In this document: piece after piece, positions 4,055 to 9,943 of the stretch
Layout: every line of letters starts with the position of its first letter
How positions within the stretch are numbered: position 1 is the first letter of the stretch
Source of the DNA: a bacterium
Lineage (GTDB): Bacteria > UBP18 > UBA7526
DNA: 14,262 nt
Assembly (NCBI GenBank): GCA_030619985.1
Contig: JAUXAI010000030.1
Location: forward strand, 1 to 14,262
Direction: 5' to 3'
Program-made: the position numbers and the translations under genes
Notes under the pieces: generated by a model
What the model was told of the DNA's origin: nothing
The model's input: only the letters and a program-made list of their open reading frames with translations
Database searches by the model: none

Positions 4055-4060
4055 GGAGGG
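4055..4060 (+). promoter_or_regulatory. Strong Shine-Dalgarno separated from its gene
   Basis: GGAGGG at 4055-4060 lies 4 bases before ATG 4065, an ideal ribosome-binding site. That ATG belongs only to the 35-codon leader frame, while the real downstream gene starts at GTG 4169. Deleting 4065-4168 would put this site directly before the downstream gene's start. Confidence 0.7.
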
Positions 4061-4064
4061 AAAG

Positions 4065-4172
4065 ATGAACCCCGCACCTTCTATTGTATCTTTTGAAAAT
4101 AAAGGAACGAGAAGCTCTCCATTCGTCTTACTGAGTAGAATACAAAATCTTATTAAGGAAGGTGCGGGGTGA
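4065..4172 (+). CDS. Possible 35-codon leader ORF inside the palindromic element before the 97-residue gene
   Basis: ATG 4065 follows an excellent Shine-Dalgarno (GGAGGG, 4-base spacer) and opens 35 codons (MNPAPSIVSF... to ...LIKEGAG). They stop at TGA 4170-4172, overlapping the GTG start at 4169 as GTGA. The frame spans the palindromic element exactly. Its translation is plausible on signal quality, and it would couple translation to the downstream gene. The peptide has no recognisable domain. It shares the opening Met-Asn-Pro-Ala-Pro with the N-terminal extension at 6875, because both are encoded by the same element end. Confidence 0.35.
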   Translation: MNPAPSIVSFENKGTRSSPFVLLSRIQNLIKEGAG

Positions 4173-4173
4173 A
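4065..4173 (+). repeat. Palindromic insertion-like element, copy 2 (RTGAA-flanked)
   Basis: The flank ATGAA (4065-4069) recurs as GTGAA (4169-4173). Inside lie perfect 13-base inverted arms, ACCCCGCACCTTC at 4069-4081 and the complement at 4158-4170, around a 76-base interior. The arm sequence is the same as in copy 3 (6875-6933), while the interiors are unrelated by eye. The right end supplies the GTG start codon of the next gene and contains its only nearby purine-rich run, so the hairpin would bury that start in RNA. Confidence 0.75.
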
Positions 4174-4462
4174 GAAAGAGGATTATCAAAGGGGAAGGAA
4201 GATGATTAGAGAAAATATGGAGAGATTGGTAGATAGATATTTAGAGGAGATTATTCGCTATAAAGAAGAGCTGGCAGGGGTCGATCTCTCTAAGATAGAG
4301 AAGTCTAAGGAAGCAGCGGAAAAGACGGAGATGCGCAATGCCAAACTCCTGGCCCTCTTAGAAATCCAGGAGATTACTAATCAGATGATTAAGGAATTAA
4401 ATGCCCTTAAAATTAGTGAACCCCGCTCTCCGATTTCATCGGAGAACGAAGGTGAAGAATAA
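4169..4462 (+). CDS. Unknown 97-residue charged coiled-coil protein
   Basis: I do not recognise a family. The protein is highly charged and predicted helical: MKKEDYQRGRKMIRENMERLVDRYLEEIIRYKEELAG, then DLSKIEKSKEAAEKTEMRNAKLLALLEIQEITNQMIKELNALK, with heptad-like spacing of I, L and M that suggests a coiled coil. It has no signal peptide, membrane segment, cysteines or histidines. The acidic tail SEPRSPISSENEGEE is encoded by a small palindrome (4417-4456) that looks like an in-frame insertion of 12 codons. The GTG start is the right end of a palindromic element. The gene is followed 34 bases later by a strong terminator, so it forms a short unit with the preceding tRNA region. It is probably a real gene, because the helical periodicity and codon pattern look natural. 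Confidence 0.72.
   Translation: MKKEDYQRGRKMIRENMERLVDRYLEEIIRYKEELAGVDLSKIEKSKEAAEKTEMRNAKLLALLEIQEITNQMIKELNALKISEPRSPISSENEGEE
4417..4456 (+). repeat. Degenerate fourth copy of the TGAA-flanked palindrome, inside a coding region
   Basis: TGAA at 4417-4420 and 4453-4456 flank a palindrome that starts CCCCG like copies 2 and 3. TCTCCGAT (4427-4434) pairs with ATCGGAGA (4438-4445) around TTC, with further weak pairing outward. The distance between flanks is 36 bases, exactly 12 codons, so the reading frame is kept. It is less perfect than the other three copies. Confidence 0.45.
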
Positions 4463-5996: not shown

Positions 5997-6878
5997 ATGG
6001 GCTATCTTTTGGCTTTAGTGAGGTATTTTCTATACTACATGGGGAGGATTATATTCTGTCGCCTTCTTCCTAAAGAGTTAAGTTATAGAATTACCCGGCT
6101 CATGGCCGATGCCCACTACTTTCTGGCTCGTCCCACCAGGAGAGCATTAATCTCTAATCTAAGGGTAGTCTGGGGGAAGGAGAAGAATGAAAGAGAGATA
6201 AGAAGGATGGCCCACCGCACCTTCCGCAGATTCGCAGGCTACGCAGTAGACTTCTTTTACTCCCCCCAGATAAATAGGGATAATATTGATGATTGGGTTA
6301 TTATAAAGGGCCTTCATTATGTAGACCGGGCTCTTTCTCAAGGGAAAGGAGTAGTAACCTTAAGTGCTCATTTAGGGAATTGGGAGCTGGGGGGAATCAC
6401 CATGGCTTTGAAGGGATATAAAATGAACGTCCTTGCCTTGGGCCATGGGAAAAGGAGGGCCACAGATATCTTCAGAAAGCAGAGGGAGGCAAAGGGAGTA
6501 AAGGTCATCCCTTTAGGAGTGGCCACAAGGAGATGCTTCCAGGCACTCAAGGATAATGAACTTTTAGCCACGCTTGGGGATCGGGATGTGAAAGGAAAAG
6601 GAATGAGGGTAGAGTTCTTTGGGAAGGAAGCCATCGTTCCCAAGGGTCCTGCTACCTTTTCTTTGGAAACTGGGGCAATAATCGTTCCATCTTTTATATT
6701 CAAGAAGGGCGAAAAGTATGAACTATCTTTTGAAAGACCTATTCTACCTAAGCCCACAGGTAATAAAGAAAAAGACCTTCTTCACCTTACTAAGAAGTGT
6801 CTCAAGGTAATCGAAAAATATATCAAGGGACATCCTGAGGAATGGTTCCTCTTTCATCGAATGTGGAGAGAAGGATGA
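5997..6878 (+). CDS. LpxL/HtrB-type lysophospholipid/lipid A acyltransferase
   Basis: The 293-residue protein belongs to the HtrB/LpxL acyltransferase family, whose members add secondary acyl chains to lipid A or acylate other glycolipids at the inner membrane. The catalytic Hx4E motif is seen as SAHLGNWE with H125 and E130. Downstream landmarks are GDRDVKGKGMRVEFFG (about 198-213) and the PKGPATFSLETGAIIVPSF block. The N-terminus is hydrophobic, LLALVRYFLYYMGRIIFCRLLP, and probably membrane-anchoring. Shine-Dalgarno AAGAGG sits 5 bases before ATG 5997. The gene ends in a TGA that overlaps ATG 6875 of the glycosyltransferase as ATGA; that TGA is also the left end of a palindromic element. A diderm envelope is suggested, though related acyltransferases (e.g. 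PatA of mycobacteria) exist elsewhere, and no lpx genes are in view to fix the substrate. Confidence 0.9.
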   Translation: MGYLLALVRYFLYYMGRIIFCRLLPKELSYRITRLMADAHYFLARPTRRALISNLRVVWGKEKNEREIRRMAHRTFRRFAGYAVDFFYSPQINRDNIDDWVIIKGLHYVDRALSQGKGVVTLSAHLGNWELGGITMALKGYKMNVLALGHGKRRATDIFRKQREAKGVKVIPLGVATRRCFQALKDNELLATLGDRDVKGKGMRVEFFGKEAIVPKGPATFSLETGAIIVPSFIFKKGEKYELSFERPILPKPTGNKEKDLLHLTKKCLKVIEKYIKGHPEEWFLFHRMWREG

Positions 6879-6933
6879 ACCCCGCACCTTTAAGCAGAAA
6901 GAAAAAATTGAATAGCAAAAGGTGCGGGGTGAA
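6875..6933 (+). repeat. Palindromic insertion-like element, copy 3 (RTGAA-flanked, short)
   Basis: ATGAA at 6875-6879 and GTGAA at 6929-6933 enclose perfect 13-base arms, ACCCCGCACCTTT (6879-6891) and its complement (6918-6930), with a 26-base interior unrelated to that of copy 2. The left TGA is the stop codon of the acyltransferase gene. The right GTG is a possible start of the glycosyltransferase. The 54-base offset between flanks is 18 codons, so the frame stays open through the element. Confidence 0.75.
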
Positions 6934-7591
6934 GACCTGTGCTATCATCCCGGCCTATAATATTGAGAAGACCCTTCCCAAAGTCATTGAGGGTGTTCAG
7001 AAGTATGTTGGTAAAGTAATCGTTGTCGACGATGGATCTACCGATGCTACTTTTGCAAAAGCAAAGGAGGCCGAGGTAACGGTTCTAAAACATGAGAAGA
7101 ATGAGGGCAAGGGAAAGGCCCTGCGCACCGGCTTAGAGTACGCTTTAAAGAAAGGCTTTGAACAGATAATCTTGATGGATGGCGATGGCCAGCACGATCC
7201 TAATGAGATACCAAGATTTCTGAAGGCCGCCCAGTATCCTCAGGTAGATATCGTTGTCGGTTCACGAATGGAGAACGTGAAGGATATGCCCAGAGAGCGC
7301 TTGGTGGTTAACAGGATCGGTTCCTTCCTCACCTCTCTTCTGGCAAGACAAAGGATCCCAGATAGCCAGTCCGGATACCGTCTGGTAAAGAGCAGGGTAT
7401 TGAAAAAGATCACCCTCACCTCCCAGCGCTACGATGTAGAGTCTGAGATGCTCATTAAAGCAGGAAAGAGGGGATTCGGGATAAAGAGCATCCCCATAAA
7501 GACCATCTATCGCCAGGAGATAAGCCACTTTCGTAAGTTCTGGGATACTCTGCGGTTCATAAAATTAATCTTGAAAGGAGTCTGGTGGTAA
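6875..7591 (+). CDS. GT2 glycosyltransferase, polyprenyl/dolichyl-phosphate sugar transferase-like
   Basis: A GT-A fold family 2 glycosyltransferase resembling DPM1/DPG-synthase proteins, which load a sugar from a nucleotide donor onto a lipid phosphate. Seen in order are AIIPAYNIEKTLPKVI, the VVDDGSTD donor-binding motif, NEGKGKALRTGL, the catalytic-type MDGDGQHDP with its DxD, and QSGYRLV before the C-terminal helices. No transmembrane pair follows, so it is the soluble or peripheral form. Two starts compete. ATG 6875 overlaps the upstream stop and has GGAG nearby, giving 238 residues. GTG 6929 lies at the end of the palindromic element and gives 220 residues, beginning immediately before TCAIIPAYN as usual in the family. 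The 18-residue basic extension (MNPAPLSRKKK...) is element-encoded and not part of the normal fold. Coupling to the LpxL-like gene suggests synthesis of an acylated or lipid-linked glycan. Confidence 0.9.
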   Translation: MNPAPLSRKKKLNSKRCGVKTCAIIPAYNIEKTLPKVIEGVQKYVGKVIVVDDGSTDATFAKAKEAEVTVLKHEKNEGKGKALRTGLEYALKKGFEQIILMDGDGQHDPNEIPRFLKAAQYPQVDIVVGSRMENVKDMPRERLVVNRIGSFLTSLLARQRIPDSQSGYRLVKSRVLKKITLTSQRYDVESEMLIKAGKRGFGIKSIPIKTIYRQEISHFRKFWDTLRFIKLILKGVWW

Positions 7592-7690
7592 CAACAGATA
7601 GATAATACAACGGATAACGCAGATAGCGCGGATAGGTAATGACAAAGTATCAGCGTAATCCGCGAAATCTGTTGTAACATAATCCGTTGT
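7591..7690 (+). repeat. 100-base palindromic repeat, copy A
   Basis: This copy begins ACAACAGAT, ends ATCCGTTGT, and consists of 9-base-like words (CGGATAACG, AGATAGCGC) followed by complements (AATCCGCG, ATCTGTTGT). It starts at the last base of the glycosyltransferase stop codon. Copy B (8125-8224) differs at only about 5 of 100 positions with no gaps; copy C (9816-9915) has the same length and is roughly three-quarters identical. There is no T-run, so it is not a simple terminator. Confidence 0.88.
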
Positions 7691-7695
7691 AAGTA

Positions 7696-7742: not shown

Positions 7743-8135
7743 ATGGAATTACTGCATAAAGAGTTAACCTATAAAATTAGGAAGTGTCTTTTTGAGGTTT
7801 ATAATACTCTTGGGCCTGGCTTCGATGAATCAGTTTATCTCAGGTCATTGATCATAGAATTCAAGCATCATGGTATAGCATATGAAACGGAAAAGCCAAT
7901 CAAAGTCCGTTACAAGAGTACCCTTGTAAAAAATTATAAACTTGATCTTGTAGTAGAAAATAAAATCATATTAGAAATTAAAGCGGTAACAAAATTAAAT
8001 CCAGCGTTCAAATCCCAAATCATATCTTATCTAAAGGCAGCCCAGTTAGACTTAGGACTTTTAGTAAACTTTGGTAAAGAAAGATTAGAAATTGAAAGAA
8101 TAATTCTTTCTAACAAAATTAAGTACAACAGATAG
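7743..8135 (+). CDS. GxxExxY protein, PD-(D/E)XK nuclease-like
   Basis: The 130-residue protein carries the defining G26-x-x-E29-x-x-Y32 motif (GFDESVY) after an N-terminal helix, ELTYKIRKCLFEVYNTLGPG. It then has a PD-(D/E)XK core: D68 in KLDLVV and E78-x-K80 in ILEIKAV, followed by Q92 in QIISYLKAA and LGLLVNFG. The GxxExxY family is classed with the PD-(D/E)XK nuclease superfamily; its biological role is not established to my knowledge, and genomes often hold several paralogs. All expected catalytic residues are present, so it may be active. The gene looks more AT-rich than its neighbours. It lies between near-identical 100-base repeats, and its last codons and stop are formed by copy B. 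The Shine-Dalgarno is weak (AAGG, 7736-7739, 3-base spacer). Together these suggest a laterally acquired or recombining cassette, which is inference. Confidence 0.9.
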   Translation: MELLHKELTYKIRKCLFEVYNTLGPGFDESVYLRSLIIEFKHHGIAYETEKPIKVRYKSTLVKNYKLDLVVENKIILEIKAVTKLNPAFKSQIISYLKAAQLDLGLLVNFGKERLEIERIILSNKIKYNR

Positions 8136-8224
8136 ATAATACATCGGATAACGCAGATAGCGCGGATAGGTAATGACAAAGTATCAGCGTAATCCGCGAA
8201 ATCCGCTGTAATACAATCCGTTGT
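8125..8224 (+). repeat. 100-base palindromic repeat, copy B
   Basis: This copy is about 95% identical to copy A by eye. It begins within the end of the nuclease-like gene and supplies the codons for its last residues and the stop at 8133-8135. A further unit, AACGAAATCCGTTGT, extends it to 8239. The left arm (CATCGGATAACGC) and right arm (AATCCGCG, ATCCGCTGT, ATCCGTTGT) are complementary. It separates the nuclease gene from the YjbQ-like gene at 8261. Confidence 0.88.
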
Positions 8225-8260
8225 AACGAAATCCGTTGTATACATAATCGAGGTGTACTG

Positions 8261-8767: not shown

Positions 8768-9826
8768 ATGACCTCTAAAGTTGGTCTCGTCTATTCAGAT
8801 GAATATCTAAAACATGATACGGGAGATCATCCAGAGAATAGCAAGCGCCTTGAAGCTATTCTAAATTATCTTAAAGAGAAAAATCTTCTAAAAAATTTAG
8901 TCTCTATTCTCCCCAAAAAAGCAAAAGAAAAGGAGATTGAATATATTCACAGCCCTTCTTACATCCAGGAGGTAGGAGAAATCTGTAGACGAGGGGGAGG
9001 ATTTTTAGATCCCGATACCCCGGTGTCCAAAGATTCCTTCGAAGTTGCTCTCTTAGCAGCGGGTGGAGTATTTAGTGCCATCGATAGAATAGTGGATGAT
9101 CTGGATAGCGCTTTTTGCCTCATTCGTCCTCCGGGCCATCATGCTCTAAAATCAAAGGGAATGGGCTTCTGCCTCTTCAATAATGTCAGCCTGGGGGCAA
9201 GGTATGCCCAGAAAAAGTATAATCTAAAGAAAGTTCTGATTATCGATTGGGACGTCCATCATGGAAATGGAACCCAAGAGGCTTTCTATCGCGACCCTTC
9301 CGTCTTATACTTCTCCCTTCATCGCTATCCCTACTATCCAGGAACAGGAGATATCGAGGAGATTGGAGAGGGAGAGGGGAAAGGATATACCGTCAATGTC
9401 CCTCTTCCTCCGGGATGTGGAAATAGTGATTATATCTATATCTTCAAGGAACTCCTTTCCCCCATCGCTAATGAATTCAAACCGGATATCACCCTCATCT
9501 CCGCAGGATTCGATGCCCACCAAGACGATCCCCTGGGAGGAATGAGTCTTGCTTCTCAAGGATACGGAGTCCTAACCTCTTTAGTGAAAGAGTTCTCTCA
9601 AGGAATAGTCTCTTGCTTGGAGGGAGGATATAATCTAAAGGCCTTAAGAGAATCTGTTTTCACCCATCTGGACTCTTTGGCCTCTCGTCCCGAGGGGACC
9701 CGAGGTCCCCGAGGGAGAGAATTCAACCTTTTCCCTAAGGGGGGAATGGACTACGAACTTCCTAGTAGAGGGGTTAAAGAGATAGTAGAAAAGGTAAAGG
9801 GAATCCATAGTAAGTACACCAGATAA
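8768..9826 (+). CDS. Histone deacetylase/AcuC superfamily amidohydrolase
   Basis: The 352-residue protein is a class II-like bacterial deacetylase of the arginase/HDAC fold; bacterial members act on acetylated proteins, polyamines or small molecules. The active site is complete: RPPGHHALKSKGMGFCLFNN with H124 and H125, DWDVHHGNGTQ with zinc ligands D162 and H164, SAGFDAHQDDPLGG with zinc ligand D249, and LEGGYNL carrying the catalytic-type Tyr. The N-terminal GDHPENSKRL is also typical. Start ATG 8768 has AGGA 7 bases upstream. After LASxx the usual C-terminus is interrupted by a Pro/Gly/Arg-rich segment, SRPEGTRGPRGREFNLFPKGG, encoded by a short palindromic repeat. The last codons (...KYTR) and the stop come from repeat copy C. 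The substrate is not predictable from sequence. Confidence 0.94.
   Translation: MTSKVGLVYSDEYLKHDTGDHPENSKRLEAILNYLKEKNLLKNLVSILPKKAKEKEIEYIHSPSYIQEVGEICRRGGGFLDPDTPVSKDSFEVALLAAGGVFSAIDRIVDDLDSAFCLIRPPGHHALKSKGMGFCLFNNVSLGARYAQKKYNLKKVLIIDWDVHHGNGTQEAFYRDPSVLYFSLHRYPYYPGTGDIEEIGEGEGKGYTVNVPLPPGCGNSDYIYIFKELLSPIANEFKPDITLISAGFDAHQDDPLGGMSLASQGYGVLTSLVKEFSQGIVSCLEGGYNLKALRESVFTHLDSLASRPEGTRGPRGREFNLFPKGGMDYELPSRGVKEIVEKVKGIHSKYTR
9683..9720 (+). repeat. Small palindrome inserted in the deacetylase coding region
   Basis: GGGGACC (9694-9700) pairs with GGTCCCC (9704-9710) around CGA, with outer pairing of TCTC and GAGA. CCCGAGG is iterated three times (9689, 9699, 9707). The frame stays open and yields an Arg/Gly/Pro-rich insert after the conserved deacetylase core. 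Confidence 0.6.
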
Positions 9827-9915
9827 ATAATACATCGGATAGCATGGATAAGTAGGGTAAGCGATAATAAAGTATCAGTGTAATCCGCGTAATCAGTTGT
9901 AACGAAATCCGTTGT
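9816..9915 (+). repeat. 100-base palindromic repeat, copy C
   Basis: The same 100-base length as copies A and B, without gaps, and roughly three-quarters identical by eye. It starts ACACCAGAT and ends ATCCGTTGT, with one more unit, AATATAATCTGTTGT, to 9930. Its left end forms the last codons and the stop (9824-9826) of the deacetylase gene. The left half is the most diverged part; the right half, AATCCGCG...GTTGT, is well kept. Confidence 0.82.
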
Positions 9916-9943
9916 AATATAATCTGTTGTAATGGAGTTTTGA

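Follow-up and report, generated by a model that had tools for sequence, protein, structure and literature searches.

Two element copies at gene starts in the window

The window (the whole stretch of DNA that was analyzed, 14,262 nt) harbors two copies of an inverted-repeat element, CCCCGCACCTT...AAGGTGCGGGG, each flanked by the 4-bp target-site duplication (TSD) TGAA (Table 1). In an initial annotation, a Shine-Dalgarno sequence (SD), GGAGGG, had been noted close to the ATGAA at 4065-4069, as had a 35-codon frame that opens at this ATG, crosses the element without a stop and terminates at a TGA overlapping the GTG of the downstream gene (GTGAAG, 4169-4174). Coordinates and reading frames proved correct, and the stop-free passage was confirmed. 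The extent of the insert proposed to lie between the SD and the gene was refined to the 100 bp enclosed by TGAA at 4066-4069 and 4170-4173. The assignment of the GTG as the true start held as well: this codon aligns with the ATG of the orthologs. An internal ATG at 4202 was considered as start of the 97-residue gene and was rejected, because it is replaced by ATA in two orthologs (L082 and L083; genomes G001 and G004). Therefore, the GTG at 4169 is the conserved start. When the window and two element loci were searched against Rfam, tRNA and rRNA alone scored above threshold and no family fell on the element.

A gene for a 130-residue PD-(D/E)XK protein (7743-8135; PF13366, E 5e-39) was also observed in the window. 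It lies between direct repeats of 102 nt (7591-7692 and 8125-8226, 95% identical), of which a third copy (78%) is found at 9816-9917. Gene and repeats are possibly another nuclease-based mobile unit.

Table 1. Position of the elements, their target duplications and the adjoining genes in the window
Feature	Position	Strand	Remarks
Original SD, GGAGGG	4055-4060	+	Now serves the leader; in the empty-site ortholog the same SD directly precedes the start
Leader ORF, 35 codons, MNPAPSIVSFENKGTRSSPFVLLSRIQNLIKEGAG followed by a stop	4065-4172	+	From the old ATG to the TGA overlapping the new start; frame kept in related copies
Left TSD TGAA of first copy	4066-4069	+	Part of the original ATGAA start; supported by the empty site and by TSD statistics
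First element copy, 100 bp	4070-4169	+	Arms 4070-4080 and 4159-4169; predicted hairpin
Regenerated start GTG	4169-4171	+	Terminal G of the element joined to TG from the target duplicate; element-free orthologs have ATG at this position
Right TSD TGAA of first copy	4170-4173	+	Contains the leader stop TGA (4170-4172), which overlaps GTG 4169-4171
First host gene, 97 residues	4169-4462	+	81-97% identical within the family (ortholog comparison); no Pfam family
SD-like GGAGAGAAGG ahead of the old start of second copy	6865-6874	+	Within the end of the upstream gene
Left TSD TGAA of second copy	6876-6879	+	Contains the TGA that ends the upstream gene, within a 4-nt ATGA overlap
Second element copy, 50 bp	6880-6929	+	Frame of the old ATG (6875) crosses the element and continues as that of the glycosyltransferase (MNPAPLSRKKKLNSKRCGVKT...)
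Right TSD TGAA of second copy	6930-6933	+	Direct repeat
Second host gene, family 2 glycosyltransferase	6929-7591	+	Regenerated GTG start; PF00535, E 2.7e-28

Empty sites in orthologous loci

Orthologs of the 97-residue gene were found in G001, G002, G003 and G004. That of the congeneric genome G002, whose protein is 97% identical, occupies an empty site, in which the same upstream flank (CCTGAGAATTTGTATCCCGGAGG...) with the SD GGAGG runs straight into ATGAAGAAAGAAG. The empty junction reads CCTGAGAATTTGTATCCCGGAGGAAAAT/ATGAAGAAAGAAG and that of the window CCTGAGAATTTGTATCCCGGAGGGAAAG/ATGAA-(100 bp)-TGAAGAAAGAGG; if one TGAA and the element are taken as the insert, the window and G002 match across the junction. 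The gene likewise begins with ATGAA in G001 and G004. The claim that the element had split an SD from its start, for which an ortholog test had been suggested earlier, was thereby borne out: in the element-free orthologs, SD and ATGAAG stand at ideal spacing. The ortholog in G003 (L084) was tried as a decayed copy, with an upstream ORF ending in KEGAE-stop, and was discarded, as the locus lacks the left arm and the frame reaches farther upstream. We read this ORF as what is presumably an ordinary overlapping gene.

For the second copy, the same insertion was found in G001 (L087), whereas the site is empty in G002-G005, where the glycosyltransferase gene starts with ATGA(A/G). Clean empty sites were also seen for a ribosomal-protein-like gene (L174 compared with L120) and for a PHP-type gene of Omnitrophota (L300 compared with L264). 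At the level of sequence comparison, these loci show the old SD and start to the left of the element and the regenerated start to its right.

Copies, target duplications and distribution of the element

The arm AACCCCGCACCTT occurred 25 times in the 1.25-Mb genome and the reversed control 0 times; therefore, the element is not a product of chance. The arm was present in all five relatives of the window's family. Scanning 84,980 named genomes for TGAA-arm-N22-52-arm-TGAA yielded 75 stretches, which came almost entirely from Omnitrophota MAGs or relatives of the window, and the spread was patchy, with the exact arm in 16 of 285 sampled genomes. The genomes compared are MAGs.

With arms of at least 11 bp and a length of 45-130 nt in most copies, this is a short element with terminal inverted repeats that duplicates its target and occurs in multiple dispersed copies, as MITEs do. 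The TSDs are 4 bp long and covary, reading TGAA, TGAG, TGAT or TGGA at gene starts and TCAA, TTGA, TTTA or TAAA elsewhere. Among non-start copies, both TSDs were identical in 22 of 29 and 31 of 48 cases (shuffled means 8.6 and 7.9). As copies are related by descent, this and the other tests are descriptive and overstate significance. Copies nested inside copies with a TGAA duplication of their own were found, as were tandem stacks. The last base of the element is A, giving an ATG start, in 23 of 137 start copies, and the mirror change on the left is present in 9.

The DDE transposase PF13701 (IS1380 type) was absent from 6 genomes, and PF01609 (IS4 type) was detected as three copies in G042 only, all without such arms; in these genomes, no DDE transposase was found between the same arms, as it would be in an IS1380- or IS4-type insertion sequence. 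REP/RAYT elements are tagged palindromes that are moved without target duplication, whereas the present element has a TSD that covaries. Neither the element nor a relative of the GIY-YIG protein described below was found in viral contigs. In two genomes of the window's genus (L117 and L067), a tRNA-like sequence was observed inside perfect arms, CCCCGCACCAT...ATGGTGCGGGG (116 nt).

Placement at start codons

Arms were gathered regardless of flanks or location in two Omnitrophota genomes, G042 and G041. Exactly at an ORF start lay 32 of 33 elements in G042 and 31 of 44 in G041, and G042 contained almost no intergenic copies. By a generous count in those loci, starts make up only about 37% (G042) and 27% (G041) of the TGAA sites that are noncoding or at gene starts. 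By this distribution, the element family is specialized for start codons. A 4-nt ATGA gene overlap was the site of entry in 41 of the 86 Omnitrophota cases, where the left TGA doubles as the stop of a preceding frame of 60 codons or more.

In the window's family, 48 of 88 copies lie away from gene starts. Its subfamilies are largely split by location: clusters of 5, 5, 5, 4 and 3 copies are all at starts, and clusters of 9, 5, 4 and 3 never are. At starts, the interior always has the same orientation, all 81 strong best matches being forward and 0 reversed, whereas non-start copies carry interiors in both orientations. Because arms and target duplications are common to start and non-start copies, the split of the subfamilies and the fixed orientation argue for selection on the interior at starts, with targeting as the remaining alternative.

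The targets are presumably radA-, argD-, lpxD- and apt-like genes in the window's family and radA-, nrdR-, purN- and pgsA-like genes in Omnitrophota, names that we assigned by reading the sequences. Two Omnitrophota genomes share a radA-like gene with an element at the start; the upstream flanks are near-identical, but the elements and TSDs (TGAG and TGAA) differ. Two genomes of the window's genus have an element there as well (L304, L351, L006 and L129 in all). Judged by flanks and TSDs, this start was either entered repeatedly or had its element replaced.

The leader frame is kept open

In the commonest Omnitrophota type, of 73 nt, a leader of 26 codons (MNPAPSKYSTIKAIRFDKLNKKEGAG, then a stop) begins at the old ATG, and its TGA overlaps the new GTG. 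The long types in the window's family have an open interior frame too, and leaders comprise 26-45 codons (MNPAP...EGAG). Other copies, such as the second one in the window, let the leader continue in frame into the gene. The length was 1 mod 3 in 66 of 88 start copies from Omnitrophota, and in 48 of these 66 the leader had no stop before the overlapping one (after shuffling, 11 on average and 18 at most); the 35 start copies of the window's family comprised 15 open leaders and 5 in-frame fusions. The leader stops early or passes the new start out of frame in 40 of the 88 start copies from Omnitrophota and in 15 of the 35 from the window's family. Therefore, strict coupling is not universal. 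Long clusters of the window's family differ by multiples of three nucleotides (100/106/112, 118/121 and 73/79/82) and non-start clusters by one or two; some start clusters differ by one nucleotide as well, so that the rule is not absolute.

A set of 27 related 73-mers provided 286 interior changes for an analysis of substitutions. Nonsense changes numbered 1 in the leader frame compared with 15.6 expected, 20 compared with 15.8 in frame 2 and 5 compared with 9.0 in frame 3; the shared ancestry of the 73-mers inflates the significance of these values, not the contrast between frames. Synonymous changes in the leader frame amounted to 53 (38 expected) and nonsynonymous changes to 163 (172 expected). 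To judge from this pattern, translation of the leader is conserved and its peptide hardly so.

Hairpin, Shine-Dalgarno sequences and a proposed coupling model

The arms are predicted to pair into a hairpin; as the last G of the right arm is part of it, the new start is buried. This agrees with the initial annotation, in which the downstream start had been placed inside the right hairpin arm. A predicted free energy of -32.5 kcal/mol (z -7.6) was obtained for the 73-nt consensus; z was -2.6 and -6.7 for the two window copies, and the empty site had no stable structure. An SD core was retained upstream of the old, left start in 23 of 35 start copies of the window's family; of the 31 non-start copies, 3 had one, and shuffling gave a mean of 6. 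The split of SD and start is therefore general. In nearly every copy, the right arm also contains AAGG about 6 nt upstream of the new GTG, which could initiate translation alone.

Insertion into an (A/G)TGAA start duplicates the 4 bp TGAA. The left duplicate keeps the old SD and start; the right one, placed behind the terminal G (or A), yields a new GTG (or ATG). We propose, as the simplest model, that ribosomes would bind at the old SD and, in translating the leader, melt the arm hairpin that hides the new start; at the overlapping TGA they would stop and re-initiate at the GTG, and gene expression would survive the insertion. In-frame fusion, as in the second window copy, would be an alternative route of tolerance. 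Start codons would thus be a safe harbor for the element. We infer coupling by leader translation and regard it as well supported: many diverged copies share the frame, which is the only one depleted of nonsense changes, and a strong hairpin encloses the start. Of 14 overlapping stop/start pairs tested in Escherichia coli and Haloferax, 13 were strictly coupled (PMC6728339), and two models of coupling, RNA unfolding and re-initiation, have been proposed (PMC12548453).

Full-length relatives encode a GIY-YIG protein

Some leaders resemble decayed GIY-YIG proteins, and that of L116 matches PF01541 (E 4e-4). A search with PF01541 identified a single 294-nt element in G042 (C58:6431-6724) that has perfect arms, is flanked by duplicated TGAA and occupies the start of a purN-like gene; its GIY-YIG ORF carries one frameshift. 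That this arm pair represents two separate elements was considered and rejected, as the ORF search showed one element. A 295-nt element (L390) with perfect arms and TGAA on both sides, at the start of an nrdR-like gene, contains an intact 100-codon ORF that runs from the target ATG to the target TGA. The ORF ends about 20 nt early in a 327-nt element at a pgsA-like start (L391). Another element (L392) resides in G002, of the window's own genus, and its protein is 77% identical to that of G042; a further one lies within a tandem array (L393). At the nrdR-like gene of L394, the arms are decayed and the ORF is intact, ending in ATGA. The exact layout with borrowed start and stop plus perfect arms was found in one intact GIY-YIG copy only (L390), the others ending earlier or being frameshifted. 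The full-length ORF lies in the frame of the leader (MNPAPS...NKKEGAG-stop). Full-length elements match PF01541 with E values of 3e-12 to 2e-16 and have the invariant Y, G, R, H and E columns; UPF0213 (1zg2, 1ywl) provides the nearest solved structures.

Short Omnitrophota copies retain both ends of the ORF (MNPAPS and NKKEGAG) and are similar to the full-length elements from end to end (z 2.7-4.6). Because full-length relatives carry the GIY-YIG ORF in the same frame, these short copies look like internal-deletion derivatives. The 73- and 94-nt interiors resemble GIY-YIG elements weakly, and the 100-bp interior in the window had no significant similarity to them (best z 1.8); we infer descent of the window copy from such an element from arms, frame and peptide ends only. 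As a proposal, the GIY-YIG protein would drive the mobility of the element, and short copies would be moved by this nuclease or a related enzyme.

The array of L393 (1345-1829) is a tandem stack at a single gene start. It consists of a 55-nt element, then a GIY-YIG element, then another short element, and each begins where the one before it regenerated the start. A 272-nt element in the window's genome, on the minus strand of contig C46 (L379:1480-1751), likewise encodes a GIY-YIG protein: its ORF is intact and has a start of its own, its arms (CCCCGCCCCCATTT) are related, and its flanks are TCAA. This element recurs in G002 (L411). Other GIY-YIG ORFs in element-bearing genomes (L405, L413 and L415) are flanked by inverted CGTCATTGCGAGGAG/CGTCATTCTGAG-type repeats, which suggests that palindromic elements of several kinds carry small GIY-YIG genes.

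Discussion

The reading we favor, with a probability of roughly 0.8, is that of a mobile inverted-repeat element inserted at start codons, whose host genes would remain expressed by translational coupling and whose short copies would be deletion derivatives of GIY-YIG elements. An ordinary nonautonomous element with a preference for TGAA-like targets might look similar, if it survived at starts merely by its G plus TGAA providing a start and AAGG a new SD, the leader being irrelevant. The near-universal AAGG ahead of the new GTG, the many closed leaders and the 48 of 88 window-family copies off gene starts speak for it. It nevertheless seems unlikely to us, since it does not account for a leader frame open far beyond chance with nonsense changes depleted in that frame only, the fixed orientation at starts, the start buried in a hairpin or the near lack of intergenic copies in G042.

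Less probable still is a domesticated translational regulator, a portable leader and hairpin that tunes expression and is kept by positive selection rather than merely tolerated. Location and orientation at starts are near-exclusive, and the same genes (radA-, rfaE-, pgsA- and nrdR-like) bear elements in different genomes, which speaks for it; yet many orthologs of these genes are element-free, amino acids are weakly constrained (163 nonsynonymous changes compared with 172 expected), the targets have no common function and the spread is patchy (16 of 285 genomes). The least plausible alternative is that the long leaders are functional small proteins, remnants of a micro-nuclease, with coupling as a by-product. 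The intact protein encoded by the full-length ORF and the persistence of the L394 ORF despite decayed arms fit this idea, but short leaders have lost the entire catalytic core, and the excess of synonymous changes is modest (53 compared with 38).

Beyond the start-codon element with coupling that we prefer, the full-length copies may tentatively point to a new class of transposable element, about 295 bp long: its only gene would be, from end to end, a GIY-YIG nuclease that borrows start and stop from the target start codon (ATGAA ... TGA) and is expressed as a coupled cistron of the host operon, and it would give rise to in-frame deletion derivatives. This assignment is somewhat less likely to be right than wrong. 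Gene starts are sites that mobile DNA would be expected to shun or disrupt; the present family seems at home there, with the start regenerated and the ribosome handed on. Filled and empty orthologs provide natural experiments on translational coupling, and odd GTG starts and small MNPAP... proteins in such genomes find an explanation. The GIY-YIG protein is a possible mobility enzyme for inverted-repeat elements with 4-bp duplications; if it does drive mobility, these would be among the smallest autonomous mobile elements.

A literature search returned no start-codon insertion elements, none from Omnitrophota and no comparable bacterial GIY-YIG elements, an absence that weighs little as subscription journals lay largely outside the search. 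Bacterial MITEs (Correia/NEMIS, RUP, ERIC; PMC2229807) are likewise short, with inverted repeats, target duplication and many copies, and some have open frames that fuse to genes; insertion into a start codon, with regeneration of the start and an overlapping leader stop, was not found for them in the literature searched. No DDE transposase with the ends of the present element was found in the genomes searched. MITE copies of Coxiella QMITE1 (PMC5896051) also contain annotated small ORFs, but they are 300-400 bp long, have direct repeats of 2-3 nt and bring complete ORFs and promoters of their own; start-codon targeting was not found in that text. Rickettsia palindromic elements (PMC2229807) are similar as palindromic mobile DNA that is tolerated in genes through an open reading frame; they have been reported within coding regions, where they add residues, whereas the copies described here are mostly placed at the start as a separate overlapping cistron.

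The conserved catalytic core of the full-length elements is that of small GIY-YIG nucleases (PF01541; UPF0213, 1zg2 and 1ywl), here enclosed by inverted repeats with a 4-bp TSD and, in the clearest copy, with start and stop taken from the target. ATGA/GTGA overlapping pairs with termination-reinitiation (PMC6728339, PMC12548453) share the overlap of one ORF's stop with the next start, which in our case is made by the target duplication of a mobile element. ORF-11 of the integron site attI1 (PMC8876359) is a close functional analog. It is part of a fixed recombination site, has 11 codons and lacks a transposing element of its own; there too, inserted DNA supplies the stop of a small ORF, translation of the next gene is raised by coupling and the sequence of the peptide hardly matters (PMC8876359).
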